A stretch of DNA of 64,000 nucleotides from Isoperla grammatica. Lineage: Eukaryota; Arthropoda; Insecta; Plecoptera; Perlodidae. Below are positions 40,624-50,360 of this stretch, one piece after another (positions within the stretch are counted from its first letter, which is position 1; each line of letters starts with the position of its first letter). The stretch spans positions 6,633,788-6,697,787 of the forward strand of contig OX246741.1 in NCBI GenBank assembly GCA_945910005.1, given 5' to 3'. Made by a program: the position numbers and the translations under genes. The notes under the pieces are model-generated. The model did no database searches and was not told where the DNA came from. It saw nothing but the letters and a program-made list of their open reading frames with translations.

Positions 40624-40633
40624 GGGAACATAT

Positions 40634-41531
40634 CTAGTGAGCGAAATTTTAAGTGAGCGAATGTTCTACTGCGCGAATGCTCTTGTGCACGAAAACTCTA
40701 GTGCGCGAACGATCCAGGCCACGAATATTCTACTGAGCGAAAACTCTAGTCCGCGAATGGTCTAGTGAGCGAATGCTCTGCTGCGCGAAATCTCTACTGA
40801 GCGACTAATTAAGTGCGCGAATGTTCTAGTGCGCGAATGTTTCAGTGTGCGAAAACCCTAGTGCGCGAATTATTCAGGCCGCGAATATTCTTCTGAGCGA
40901 AAATTCTAGTCCGCGAATGGTCTAGTGAGTGAATGCTCTACTGCGCGAAAACGCTACTGAGCGAATAGTTAAGCGCGCGAATGCTCTACTGTGCGAATAA
41001 TCTAGTGAGCGAATGGTCTAGTACGCGAATGCTCTAGTCCGCGAATTCTTTAGTGCGCGAAAACTCTAGTCCACTAATGGTCTAGTGAGCGAATGCTCTT
41101 CTGCGCGAAAACTCTCCTGAGCGAATAGTTAAGCGCGCGAATGCTCTACTGCGCGAATAGTCTAGTAAGCGAATGGTCTAGTGCGCGAATGCTCTAGTTC
41201 ACGAATTCTCTAGTGCGCGAAAACTCTAGTCCGCTAATGGTCTACAGAGCGAATGCTCTACTGCGCGAAAACTCTACTGAGTGAATAGTTAAGCGCGTGA
41301 ACCCTCTACTGCGCGTATAATCTACTGAGCGAATGCTCTAGTGAGCGAATGATGTAGTGCGCGAAACCCCTCTTGCTTGAAAACTCTGGTCCGCGAAGGG
41401 TCTAGTACGCGGATGATCTACTGAGCGAAAACTCCACCGAGCTAATAGTTAAGTGAGCGAGTGGTCTAATGAGCGAATAGTCTAGAGAGCTAATGTTCTA
41501 GTGAGCGAATGATCTAGTGAGCGAAAAGTCT
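40634..41531 (+). repeat. Left terminal array: 16-bp units in a 160-bp period
   Basis: Units such as GCGCGAATGCTCTAGT vary in a fixed order. The marker AGTCCGCGAATGG and its variants recurs at 40748, 40908, 41068, 41228 and 41388, exactly every 160 bp or ten units. The array is dense in CG dinucleotides and differs sharply from flanking DNA. Confidence 0.92.
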
Positions 41532-42015
41532 ATACCGGTTTTTTCACCGCGTTCCAAAAACATCGAGTGATGTTCCCAGCTCCAATGTTCCTTGGCGACA
41601 CGGAAACCCCGTGTAGATAGGCAACCCTTGTGACGTTTGTGAATTGTTGTCTGCATCTCACCAGGGGTGTTATACAGAGGAAGAATTCGGTTGTCTAAAG
41701 GGCGCGTGTGTGTCAGAATATATTGTTACTGCAACGAATGGCGCAGAAATCCACCTGCTGGTTGACAAAAGCGGGGTCGACCATTATTATCTCCCTCAAG
41801 AAAAATTACCATCAATAAAATGAAAGTACTGTTTTATTACTTTTCACAAACTTATTTTGAGAGTAGCAAATCCTGTATCCAATTGTTACGCCGATTACAA
41901 AACCTTTTTACTTTTTTCGCTAGCTATATGCAATAGTATTTTATTTGGAAGGATCCCATAGAGTTAGGGGATAGCGACAAATTTCTAAAAATAAAATAAA
42001 AATTAACAACATCAA

Positions 42016-42369
42016 GAACAACAACAACAACAACAACCACAACAACCACAACAACAACTTCAACAACAACAACAACAACAACAACAACAACAACAACAAC
42101 AACAACAACAACAACAACAACAACAACAACAACAACAACAACAACAACAACAACAACAACAACAACAACAACAACAACAACAACAACAACAACAACAACA
42201 ACAACAACAACAACAACAACAACAACAACAACAACAACAACAACAACAACAACAACAACAACAACAACAACAACAACAACAACAACAACAACAACAACAA
42301 CAACAACAACAACAACAACAACAACAACAACAACAACAACAACAACAACAACAACAACAACAACAACAA
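42016..42369. repeat. (AAC)n microsatellite, about 350 bp
   Basis: An almost pure run of over 100 trinucleotide units. The long leucine frame on the minus strand is a by-product of the repeat. Confidence 0.97.
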
Positions 42370-42605
42370 TAAGAATAATAATAAGAATAATTAATACTTC
42401 GTAAATTTTACCGACAGATTACAAACTACATTGCGACCGTGCAGTTATAACAGACCAAACCATATACATCACAATATTCCAAGTATCATGATTATCGATA
42501 CGAAGAAACAATTTTAATTGATGTTGGTGTCCCCCTCTGCCACAATCAGAGACAATATGGCAAGACCAAATAAACAGGTATAAGGAGCTTTCTGTTGATA
42601 TAAAA

Positions 42606-42923
42606 ATTATTATTATTATTATTTTATTGAATGTATCACAATCATACAATCTCGGTCAAAACCGGCGTTAACATGTTATACGGACGTAATGTCAAGTATT
42701 TCCATGTGTCTACTATTATTATTATTATTATTATTATTATTATTATTATTATTATTATTATTATTATTATTATTATTATTATTATTATTATTATTATTAT
42801 TATTATTATTATAATTATTATTATTATTATAATTATTATTATTATTATTATTATTATTATTATTATTATTATTATTATTATTATTATTATTATTATTATT
42901 ATTATTATTATTATTATTATTAT
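42606..42923. repeat. (ATT)n microsatellite
   Basis: A short ATT run at 42606-42623 and a long one at about 42713-42923 with two ATA interruptions. The long run ends exactly at the left edge of the LTR-like element. Confidence 0.95.
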
Positions 42924-43129
42924 TGTTTAGAGCTGGAAAGGAAATGAATATGTTGCCGATAAATAGCTCATTTATCTAATGACAAAAGATACAAGAAGCA
43001 GCCAGAGCTATATAAAAACAGAAGAACACATAATAACAAACCATAAAACACAACAATGAATTGAAAAGAAGTTAAATAGAAGAAGAAGGAAAACAAATAA
43101 GTTAGTTAAAAGATGGTCGCGATTGAACA
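42924..43129 (+). repeat. Left LTR-like terminal repeat
   Basis: 206 bp, TG...CA boundaries, with a TATA box inside. Differs from the right copy by T/C near 42935 and G/A near 43104. Confidence 0.8.
43009..43016 (+). promoter_or_regulatory. TATA-box-like site in the LTR-like repeat
   Basis: CTATATAAAAAC inside the left terminal repeat, at the place a promoter would be expected for an LTR. The same site occurs in the right repeat. Confidence 0.4.
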
Positions 43130-43298
43130 TTCCGGCCCCCATGAATGCTCTGCTTCATTGAGTGGGTAGAGGACAGAGTTTGACAACTGGGCGAGTGATG
43201 ACTGCATGGGAGATGATAACATCTGTGATCCGCGAGGCGCAACAATGTTTGATTATGAGCGATGTGTCTCCGTGTACTGGTAGGGGGTTGAGAAGTCA

Positions 43299-48076: not shown

Positions 48077-48410
48077 TGACTGACGTGATTTGACTAACCC
48101 GGCTTTGACCAAAGTATTTAAGAGGAAACTGTGCCAATACCAACATGTGATGAAAAATAATGTTTCATGTGTTGAAAACATTATCTATTGTTGTTTTTCT
48201 GTAATGAGTAATATAATAAGCGTCAGTTGTAAACTGTAAAATTGGTATCATAATATTACTTCTGGTATATTTGCATTAGTTACTTTGACAAATGACAAAA
48301 TATAAACCTACAAGATTGCTTCTGATTGGCAATATGTGTCTTATGTGACCAGTCTTTTGTTGCGAATACCCAGTAATTATGAAAATATTAAGTTGGAACT
48401 CGTTTTCAAC

Positions 48411-48690
48411 ATGGCAACAACCAATGGGAAGTCTGGATTACGCTGGTTAGAATCCCCCGTAAGGCACGGGTTATATTATATATTTTAATCATATAATAAT
48501 TTCTCACACTCCTCCATTGTGAATAGTATGAGTATTTATAAACAAAATTCTTTCAAGCTAAAAAACAACAATGGTGATTTAGAAGCCGCAAATAAAGTGT
48601 TTTTATTCGAGGATGACAATAATATAATTTATAATACATGGAGTTTCCATAATATTGGGAACATTCAGGGAGTTTTGCTTTACAAGAGAC
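48411..48690 (+). CDS. Candidate 5' exons of an unknown gene
   Basis: AACATGG is a strong start context. The first exon (48411-48458, MATTNGKSGLRWLESP) ends at a donor CCC|GTAAGG. An acceptor CTTTCAAG at 48557 keeps phase and opens a second exon to a donor GAC|GTGAGT at 48691. Phases are consistent across the 99-bp intron. No downstream exon or domain could be recognised, and a 28-C tract follows at 48703. Confidence 0.28.
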
Positions 48691-48702
48691 GTGAGTAAAG
48701 CT

Positions 48703-48730
48703 CCCCCCCCCCCCCCCCCCCCCCCCCCCC
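48703..48730 (-). repeat. 28-base poly-C tract
   Basis: One of the longest homopolymers in the window; on the minus strand it is a G28 run capable of G-quadruplex formation. The length in the assembly may be unreliable. Confidence 0.9.
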
Positions 48731-48731
48731 A

Positions 48732-49475
48732 CCTCACACACGTTCAAGCATTTCGACAAGGAGGCTTGTGAACATCGTGTTTGTAAACATGTTGGACAGT
48801 GTGGGGGGGCTGGGGGGGGGGGGAGGGGGAAACGAAAACTTGTATACCGGTACCAACATCAGTCCATTACACATTTTAAAATATAATTATTGTGATGTGA
48901 ATAACCTTACTCTCATTTTACGCAGTTGTTCTGTTAAACGTAGTATTTGTGATGGGCTGATAAAATACACCATATTGTAACTAATGCGATCTCATTGGTA
49001 AATGTTATTAATGAAATATTCTTTGTGGTGATTTAATTTCAAATATAGCCAGAACAAAAGTCAAAATGTTTTACAATCAGCTCAACAAGAATATTCAAGA
49101 TGTTCTGTTATGCAATATTCAAGATGTTATTATGCAATGAACAAAATTGCAGTTTCATTTACTGATGTCGTCTTACTTGAGGGAGAGATATTTATGATCA
49201 ACCCTTCGAGGGATGACTTGAGTTCCAGTCTTCGCTATTCTCGACCGGTGGCTTTGTTAACCCCTCCCCCCCCCCCCCCGCGCGCCACTAAACCGTTATA
49301 ATATATTCCTTGCTACGACACTGGGCAAGAATACTCCTGTTGTACAGTACACCGCGTTTCTTTGGAGCTAGTTCGGTTGCCTGAATAGGAGGCGTCTACT
49401 CAATCTTGAAGAAAAGGCTGAATGTTTTCAAGTCCAGTAATAAAGCCTGTTTAGGAATTTATGACCGGACGTGGG
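48732..49475. other. Interior of the 9.7-kb element without recognised coding sequence
   Basis: Contains a G tract at about 48800-48832, a C tract at about 49263-49279 and TTCCTTGCTACGACACTGGG at 49307-49326, which on the minus strand resembles a hAT-type end (CAGTGTCGTAGCAAGG). A matching opposite end was not found. Confidence 0.45.
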
Positions 49476-50300
49476 ACTCTCTACTGAGCGAATGTTCTAG
49501 TGAGCGAAAACTCTAGTCAGCAAAACATCTAGTCCGCTAATGGTCTAGTGAGCGAATGCTCTACTGCGCGAAAACGCTACTGAGCGAATAGTTAATCGCG
49601 CGAATGCTCTACTGTGCGAATAGTCTAGTGAGCGAATGGTCTAGTACGCGAATGCTCTAGTCCGCGAATTCTTTAGTGCGCGAAAACTCTAGTCCACTAA
49701 TGTTCTAGTGAGCGAATGCTTTACTGCGCGAAAACTCTTCTGAGCGAATACTTAAGCGCGCGAATGCTCTACTGCGCGAATAGTCTAGTAAGCGAATGGT
49801 CTAGTGCGCGAATGCTTTAGTACGCGAATTCTCTAGTGCGCGAAAACTCTAGTCCGCTAATGGTCTAGTGAGCGAATGCTCTACTGCGCGAAAACGCTAC
49901 TGAGCGAATAGTTAAGCGCGCGAATGCTCTACTGCGCGAATAGTCTAATGAGCGAATGGTCTAGTACGCGAATTCTCTAGTCCGCGAATTCTCTAGTGGG
50001 CGAAAACCCTAGTCCGCTAATGGTCCAGTGAGCGAATGCTCTACTGCGCGAAAACTCTTCTGAGCGAATAGTTAAGTGCGCGAATGCTCTTCTGCGCGAA
50101 TAGTCTAGTAAGCGAATGGTCTAGTGCGCGAATGCTCTAGTGCGCGAATTCTCTAGTGCGCGAAAACTCTAGTCCGCTAATGGTCTAGAGAGCGAATGCT
50201 CTACTGCGCGAAAACTCTACTGAGAGAAGAATTAAGTGCACGAATGTTCTACTGCGCGAATGCTCTAGTGCGCGAAAACTCTAGTGAGCGAATGATCGGG
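49476..50300 (+). repeat. Right terminal array: same 160-bp higher-order repeat
   Basis: The marker AGTCCGCTAATGG or a variant is found at 49531, 49691, 49851, 50011 and 50171, again every 160 bp. It has the same orientation as the left array. Only the last 60 bp or so, from about 50296, switch to the inverse orientation and form the terminal inverted repeat. Confidence 0.92.
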
Positions 50301-50360
50301 TGCGTTTTCGCTTACTAGAACATTCGCTCACTTAAATTTTCGCTCGCTAGATATGTAGCC

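Follow-up and report, generated by a model that had tools for sequence, protein, structure and literature searches.

A multi-copy family of transposons with direct terminal arrays in the genome of Isoperla grammatica

Introduction

What kind of mobile element ends in long arrays of a higher-order tandem repeat, and what moves it? The question is raised by a 9737-bp segment at positions 40624..50360 (plus strand) of a 64,000-nucleotide stretch of Isoperla grammatica DNA (contig OX246741.1, assembly GCA_945910005.1), below called the window. The window is C9:6633788-6697787 in the contig numbering used here; the genome comprises 874 Mb in 603 contigs, over which all genome-wide searches were run. 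The segment was delimited by its target-site duplications (TSDs), its tips and a comparison with 19 other fetched copies. It is a genuine transposon insertion and belongs to a family whose many copies share conserved tips. We consider it very probable that the family is young, apparently non-autonomous and of the cut-and-paste (DDE) type, with a transposase acting in trans, arrays likely serving as binding or pairing sites, and the present insertion heterozygous.

Limits of the insertion

The element is flanked by an exact 8-bp duplication, GTACAAAC, at 40616..40623 and 50361..50368 (no strand applies to these features, nor to the empty site, the two homologous copies, the scaffold gap and the nested insertion described below). 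The same 8-mer occurs once at the corresponding place, 19556..19563, of copy A, a homologous segment of the window that is probably the other allele; the element itself resides in copy B. When the flanks in copy B are fused at the TSD, the alignment with copy A is gap-free at the junction, and the empty site is exact. Two further occurrences of GTACAAAC in the window, at 32163 and 63305, lie at a distance from the element.

The tips form terminal inverted repeats (TIRs). The left tip, GGGAACATATCTAG (40624..40667, plus strand), and the right tip, GGCTACATATCTAG read inward (50317..50360, minus strand), agree, when compared in inverted orientation, at 40 of 44 positions; among 200,000 random pairs taken from the window, none touching an array, the best agrees at 30. 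Thus the original prediction of an exact target duplication, a matching empty site in copy A and 44-bp inverted termini is borne out in all three parts. TIRs, a TSD of near-constant length across copies and an empty site equal to the pre-insertion sequence are the features of a class II cut-and-paste element, and all of them are present.

The family in the genome

The terminus was used as a probe for further copies. The tip pattern ACATATCTAGYGAGCGAAAWTT, allowing up to 2 mismatches, has 302 matches in the genome, against 1 for the reversed pattern used as a control, and the exact 26-bp left tip has 66. Positions were listed for 100 of the 302 tips, up to contig C16, all with 0 mismatches. We fetched 19 further copies by the left end, two copies of 12.7 kb and two larger ones; flanks were fetched for ten tip pairs, which include the two larger copies.

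Thirty copies, the window included, have both tips. The TSD is 8 bp long in 21 of them, 9 bp in two and 10 bp in one; hence the 8-bp duplications expected at other insertion sites are found in 21 of the 24 clean cases, but not in the remaining three. In the other six copies the duplication is ambiguous within a repeat (C16), only 4 bp long (C5:110957328), absent (L018, C1:79629206 and C8a) or obscured by a run of N (C7a). The latter gap lies four bases outside the left tip, and these four bases do not fit a TSD of 8–10 bp. For two more copies, L020 and L027, the right tip was not seen within the stretch read. The tips begin with 5'-GG in the delimited copies. The mean Kimura two-parameter divergence of the interior is 1.6% for segment int6 (18 copies) and 1.6% for segment int1 (17 copies).

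Some copies have a more complicated structure. L022 carries a second left tip without a right tip of its own, and its outer TSD is clean; it looks as if a nested insertion had been followed by recombination between right arrays. Compound copies with two tandem left tips are seen in L022, L020 and at C13:3.69 Mb. At the other extreme, short copies of 621 and 864 bp have one array each, with the TSDs still present. Formation of solo arrays by homologous recombination was considered for the short copies and rejected, as the junctions of L010 and L023 are out of the 16-bp register. Because the junctions do not follow the monomer register, these copies look like ordinary internal deletions, such as might be expected of interrupted gap repair.

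The arrays should occur together with the ends if both belong to one element. In a search of the genome for the arrays (best 40 of 470 candidates scored, compared by eye with the tip lists), nearly all listed arrays sit at loci with a listed tip, as the original prediction requires; the arrays at C7:45.73 Mb and C17:24.77 Mb have no listed tip.

A second subfamily is represented by two 12.7-kb copies on different contigs, C7a (C7:8255643-8268353) and C8a (C8:24595974-24608687; L032-L035). They share the tips and the array architecture with the window element; their direct arrays are longer and the interior is mostly different, with a 223-bp stretch of segment int7 being 83% similar. C7a and C8a share 99.97% identity across 12,714 bp. 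As these copies are near-identical, though themselves without a TSD, very recent mobility of the family is probable; the transposase would come from elsewhere in the genome.

Terminal arrays

Tandem Repeats Finder (TRF) reports a period of 160 in both arrays, with 5.6 copies on the left and 5.1 on the right, built from 16-bp units. The left array (40633..41532, plus strand) contains about 56 monomers of 16 bp, ten per 160-bp unit, and a monomer with TTAAG(T/C)G occurs once in each of six units. The right array (49480..50294, plus strand) consists of 51 monomers in the same orientation as the left one; here TTAAG(T/C)G is present in four of five units, and the fifth has TTAATCG. The motif is spaced at 160 bp, and other copies have lost it in some of their units. 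At lag 160 the identity amounts to 0.83 in the left array and 0.89 in the right one, versus 0.66–0.75 at other multiples of 16 up to 192; at lag 320 the right array gives 0.90, slightly above its lag-160 value. Hence the 160-bp higher-order arrays predicted at both ends, with ten 16-bp monomers per unit, are confirmed.

The predicted symmetry of the arrays, on the other hand, does not hold. The best direct identity between the left and right arrays is 0.87 over 676 bp, whereas the best inverted identity is 0.38 over 542 bp; the arrays are not mirror images. The direct orientation was computed in the window, L017 and C7a, and the same is seen in other long copies where both arrays were read. 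Inversion is confined to the outermost 45–60 bp or so of the ends, where the last three monomers, making up the right end (50305..50352, minus strand), are inverted. Because both arrays run in one direction and only these outermost bases are inverted, a foldback structure is rejected, and the mirror-image reading of the array-rich ends is not supported.

Comparison of the arrays with the tips yields a further regularity. The best array matches of a 48-bp tip module reach 40 of 48 positions and have a common phase within the 160-bp unit, while other phases give at most 37. Because TTAAG(T/C)G recurs in the units and the tip module matches one phase best, the arrays resemble tip modules repeated in tandem. 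In the left array of the window, two units are as similar to right arrays from other copies as to left arrays (96% in both cases), which suggests sequence exchange between the two ends of the element.

Interior of the element

Several segments of the interior belong to the family. Segment int1 (41533..42004, plus strand) is found at 95–98% identity in other long copies, being partial in L028; int2 (42370..42713, plus strand) is present, whole or in part, in most long copies; and int4–int7 (46132..49478, plus strand) contain the relic of a THAP exon and no other Pfam domain at E<=1 in six frames. Between int2 and int4 lies a nested insertion resembling a long terminal repeat (LTR) element (42924..45548), with 206-bp direct repeats (TG..CA) at 42924-43129 and 45343-45548 that are 99% identical. 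It has a possible 5-bp duplication, ATTAT, the left one lying inside a TAT repeat, and holds a GC-rich 49-bp minisatellite of about 33 copies (43294-44893). As it has no match among the 19 other fetched copies, this insertion does not belong to the element proper.

The THAP-type exon noted originally is real, but broken. The relic (46311..46523, plus strand) matches PF05485 with E=9.4e-10 over profile positions 1–58 of 87; it lacks an ATG, has a stop after residue 70 and, compared with an intact exon at another locus, shows a deletion of 44 bp. The THAP region is present in 18 of 20 copies of the window subfamily (partially in one of them) and absent from the two short copies. In all 18 carriers stop codons or frameshifts disrupt the exon, and many of these lesions are common to several copies. 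By its sequence, the exon thus appears to be cargo or a remnant and not a working gene.

THAP domains are restricted to animals, according to the available part of PMC7776569, and a profile search finds them abundant across this genome. The intact exon at C15:2688982 (L063) has the full domain (62 bits) and 69% amino-acid identity to the relic; at the DNA level the two are about 83% identical over 232 bp, the relic lacking the ATG and 44 bp. Together with exons at C1:62685535, C9:36762818 and C9:49996827 it is among those nearest to the relic (67–69%), all open over the match. One possibility is that these four exons point to the true source gene or to an autonomous partner; no P catalytic domain is seen by eye near them among the matches listed. 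Another THAP match, at C6:33275672, shows 88% identity to the relic and has an open frame of 94 aa; none of the listed tips is near it. A protein search with the THAP region in a large sequence collection gave 17 candidates, none at E<=1.

Search for a transposase

The Pfam scan covered six frames of 46132-49481 of the window, three frames of 41533-42004, six frames of C8a (plus frames only in the last 1.5 kb of the interior), one frame of L011 and about half of the nested insert of L016. No transposase was found in these frames. In C8a no Pfam family exceeded the cut-off, the best being a sub-threshold domain of unknown function, and THAP was not found in the frames scanned. The other copies were checked by open reading frames (ORFs) of at least 95 aa (at least 120 aa in C6e and C9e) and by homology to the window; the longest ORFs of C6e and C9e are reverse-transcriptase-like, as judged by eye. 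A 952-aa open frame beside a left tip at C17:26.25 Mb was dismissed as an artefact, a run of N having been read as open. A fuller copy with a P-type catalytic domain, which the original prediction led us to look for, was not found in the copies scanned, a 22-kb tip pair on C5 lying outside this search.

Alternative explanations

As to the superfamily, the GG tips and TSDs of 8–10 bp are no less compatible with Merlin or Mutator/Foldback than with P. That a THAP-containing P-type transposase binds the TTAAGTG repeated in the tips and arrays, as in Galileo, is possible, if tentative. It would account for the THAP relic (PF05485) and for the predominance of 8-bp TSDs. The Drosophila P transposase recognizes the site AT(A/C)CACTTAA, and TTAAGTG, which both tips contain and which recurs roughly once in every 160-bp unit, resembles it. 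RNaseH domains of the P type are also abundant here, with at least 154 matches, many in long open frames (best 150 of 319 candidates scored; this and other domain counts are lower bounds, as the best 40 or 150 candidates were scored). Moreover, repeats in the Galileo TIRs hold extra THAP sites, according to the available part of PMC3688188. However, our tips start with GG and three of the 24 clean TSDs are 9–10 bp long. Tips of the Drosophila P element start with CA. The same is true for Pdre2 (PMC10983969). The 12.7-kb copy has no THAP in the frames scanned, and the closest intact THAP exons are those without a listed P domain nearby. On the contigs with listed tips, the nearest P and THAP places are 48 kb and 77 kb from a tip, among 120 P matches, 108 THAP matches and 100 tips listed, with 202 tips and the unscored candidates outside the comparison. 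A P transposase combines THAP, a helix-turn-helix and a split RNase H/GBD, of which the window interior showed just the broken THAP exon and the scanned frames of C8a none. Hence the proposed link to the P superfamily, with this exon as its basis, is not upheld.

A Merlin-like element with an IS1016-type transposase is rather doubtful as an explanation, although the ends agree well: Merlin elements have conserved 5'-GG tips and TSDs of 8 or 9 bp, and the available part of PMC8101967 reports internal tandem repeats, one with a 163-bp unit. Here GG tips are accompanied by TSDs of 8–9 bp in 23 of 24 clean cases, and the genome has 24 DDE_Tnp_IS1595 matches (34 candidates). Yet one TSD is 10 bp long, and none of the 24 matches lies, by eye, within a listed tip pair (100 of 302 tips listed). 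Two fetched Merlin loci have no such tip from 1.2 kb before to 0.7 kb after the domain, and the copies of the family that were scanned yielded no Merlin transposase. The part of PMC8101967 available does not mention long terminal arrays for Merlin. A Mutator/Foldback element of the Phantom or Tm1 kind is, to a similar degree, doubtful. TSDs of Mutator-like elements (MULEs) are 8–11 bp (PMC6446971, as far as available), which includes the present 8–10 bp. In Tm1 of root-knot nematodes, the ends consist of 13–15-bp tandem repeats with asymmetric outer motifs, TSDs are 8–10 bp in 45 of 53 elements, and non-autonomous copies and empty sites have been shown (PMC3169594, available part). MULE domains occur in this genome in long open frames, with at least 130 matches (best 150 of 241 candidates). 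On the other side, Tm1 repeats are inverted, its TSDs are mostly 9 bp while the commonest length here is 8, and the available part of PMC3169594 mentions no 160-bp higher-order unit. The arrays considered here are direct (0.87 vs 0.38) and lack mirror-image ends. By eye, no listed MULE match falls inside a listed tip pair, the nearest one seen being about 20 kb away, on C13.

The TSDs of hAT elements have the form nTnnnnAn. Of the 21 TSDs of 8 bp in the family, 11 carry T at the second position and 13 carry A at the seventh, five of the 21 being given in the contig and not the element orientation. The hAT domain itself, with 1705 candidates in the genome (best 150 scored), is uninformative on the superfamily. 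For KDZ, neither the search nor its control gave a match. P-type transposase open frames of 989–1179 aa and some MULE frames have copies with equal or near-equal scores at several places, which suggests that they are recently active autonomous DNA transposons of this genome.

The other question is whether copies A and B are alleles. Copy A (16449..37641) is the end of the left contig and is homologous up to its last base; copy B (37842..64000) starts the next contig and is homologous from its first base; between them is a scaffold gap of 200 N (37642..37841). The homology runs from the first base of B (37842) to the last base of A (37641), the latter matching 5.05 kb past the window. Because it extends end to end at the contig join, A and B are most likely unmerged haplotypes and the insertion heterozygous. 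A true tandem duplication, with the element inserted afterwards, would explain why the homologous segments adjoin on one scaffold and differ by 842 substitutions in 15,132 aligned positions (5.6%) and many indels. We regard it as improbable: the limits of homology are contig ends, the pattern of unmerged allelic contigs, and the other gap of the window (250-449) is also flanked by a 42–47-bp overlap at 87%. Both gaps of the window (250-449 and 37642-37841) have homologous contig ends at their sides, hinting that the assembly holds further unmerged haplotype overlaps. A 25-bp minisatellite (23 copies) lies near the insertion in B, at 50569-51144, and none is reported at the matching place of A. 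As for recent movement, it stands on the near-identical copies and the probable allelic pair of filled and empty sites; gene duplication is not its basis.

Several points weigh against a young, non-autonomous family with functional arrays and a heterozygous insertion. No autonomous partner was found, Pfam having covered few copies and most being checked by long ORFs and homology to the window. The one-array copies of 621 and 864 bp with TSDs mean that two arrays are dispensable or were lost after insertion. The phase signal in the arrays is modest (40 vs 37 of 48). The near-identical copies C7a and C8a are poor witnesses to the TSD, with none in C8a and four unfitting bases in C7a, and could be assembly joins or rearranged copies. 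Finally, A and B could have arisen by true tandem duplication, with the gap falling just at the junction.

Discussion

The family is best explained by cut-and-paste transposition with an enzyme supplied in trans. The transposase of an autonomous element would recognise the inverted tips of about 45 bp and pair both ends through them, possibly aided by the repeated array modules, by analogy with Galileo. The element would be excised whole and reinserted at staggered breaks, usually of 8 bp and sometimes of 9–10 bp, whose repair would create the TSDs. The arrays may be tandem expansions of tip-like 16-bp modules, most likely acting as extra sites for transposase binding or end pairing; as they have the same orientation at both ends, the true ends would be just the outer 45–60 bp or so. 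The interior, including the dead THAP exon, would be cargo or a relic. The insertion is presumed heterozygous in the sequenced individual, the assembly having placed both alleles side by side.

Array-ended elements of the cut-and-paste class are already known, and what sets the present family apart is the same-orientation higher-order arrays. Galileo, a P-superfamily cut-and-paste element of Drosophila, has long ends with tandem repeats and a connection to THAP, its THAP domain binding sites within these repeats (PMC3688188, available part); unlike the element described here, with its direct arrays, GG tips and broken THAP exon, it carries the repeats in inverted TIRs. Tetris, a foldback element of Drosophila virilis, lacks conserved ORFs and shows tandem repeats within its ends, a link to satellite DNA and TSDs of 8–9 bp in three complete copies, but its 220-bp repeats are inside inverted TIRs (PMC4079207, available part). 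The arrays and GG tips also have parallels in the Tm1 and Merlin elements discussed above. The TU elements of sea urchin have array-type outer domains, inverted repeats and 8-bp TSDs.

No description of the element was found in the literature searched, most subscription papers and any repeat library being outside that search; the element could be catalogued elsewhere. It is conceivable, though we think it quite improbable, that the family is a distinct lineage, in which same-orientation higher-order arrays replace foldback ends and multiply a tip-derived binding module, the true termini are about 45 bp long, and the transposase belongs to a lineage so far unlinked to such ends. If true, the enzyme would assemble on kilobase-scale ends while about 45 bp act as the termini.

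Array-ended transposons connect mobile DNA with satellite DNA. The role of end arrays as binding sites is largely untested beyond Galileo, as the available part of PMC3688188 states for Foldback and Phantom. The present family is very young and has two subfamilies with common tips and direct arrays but different interiors, which makes the idea of arrays as binding sites directly testable. The probable pair of filled and empty alleles in one individual would, in turn, be a clean insertion polymorphism.

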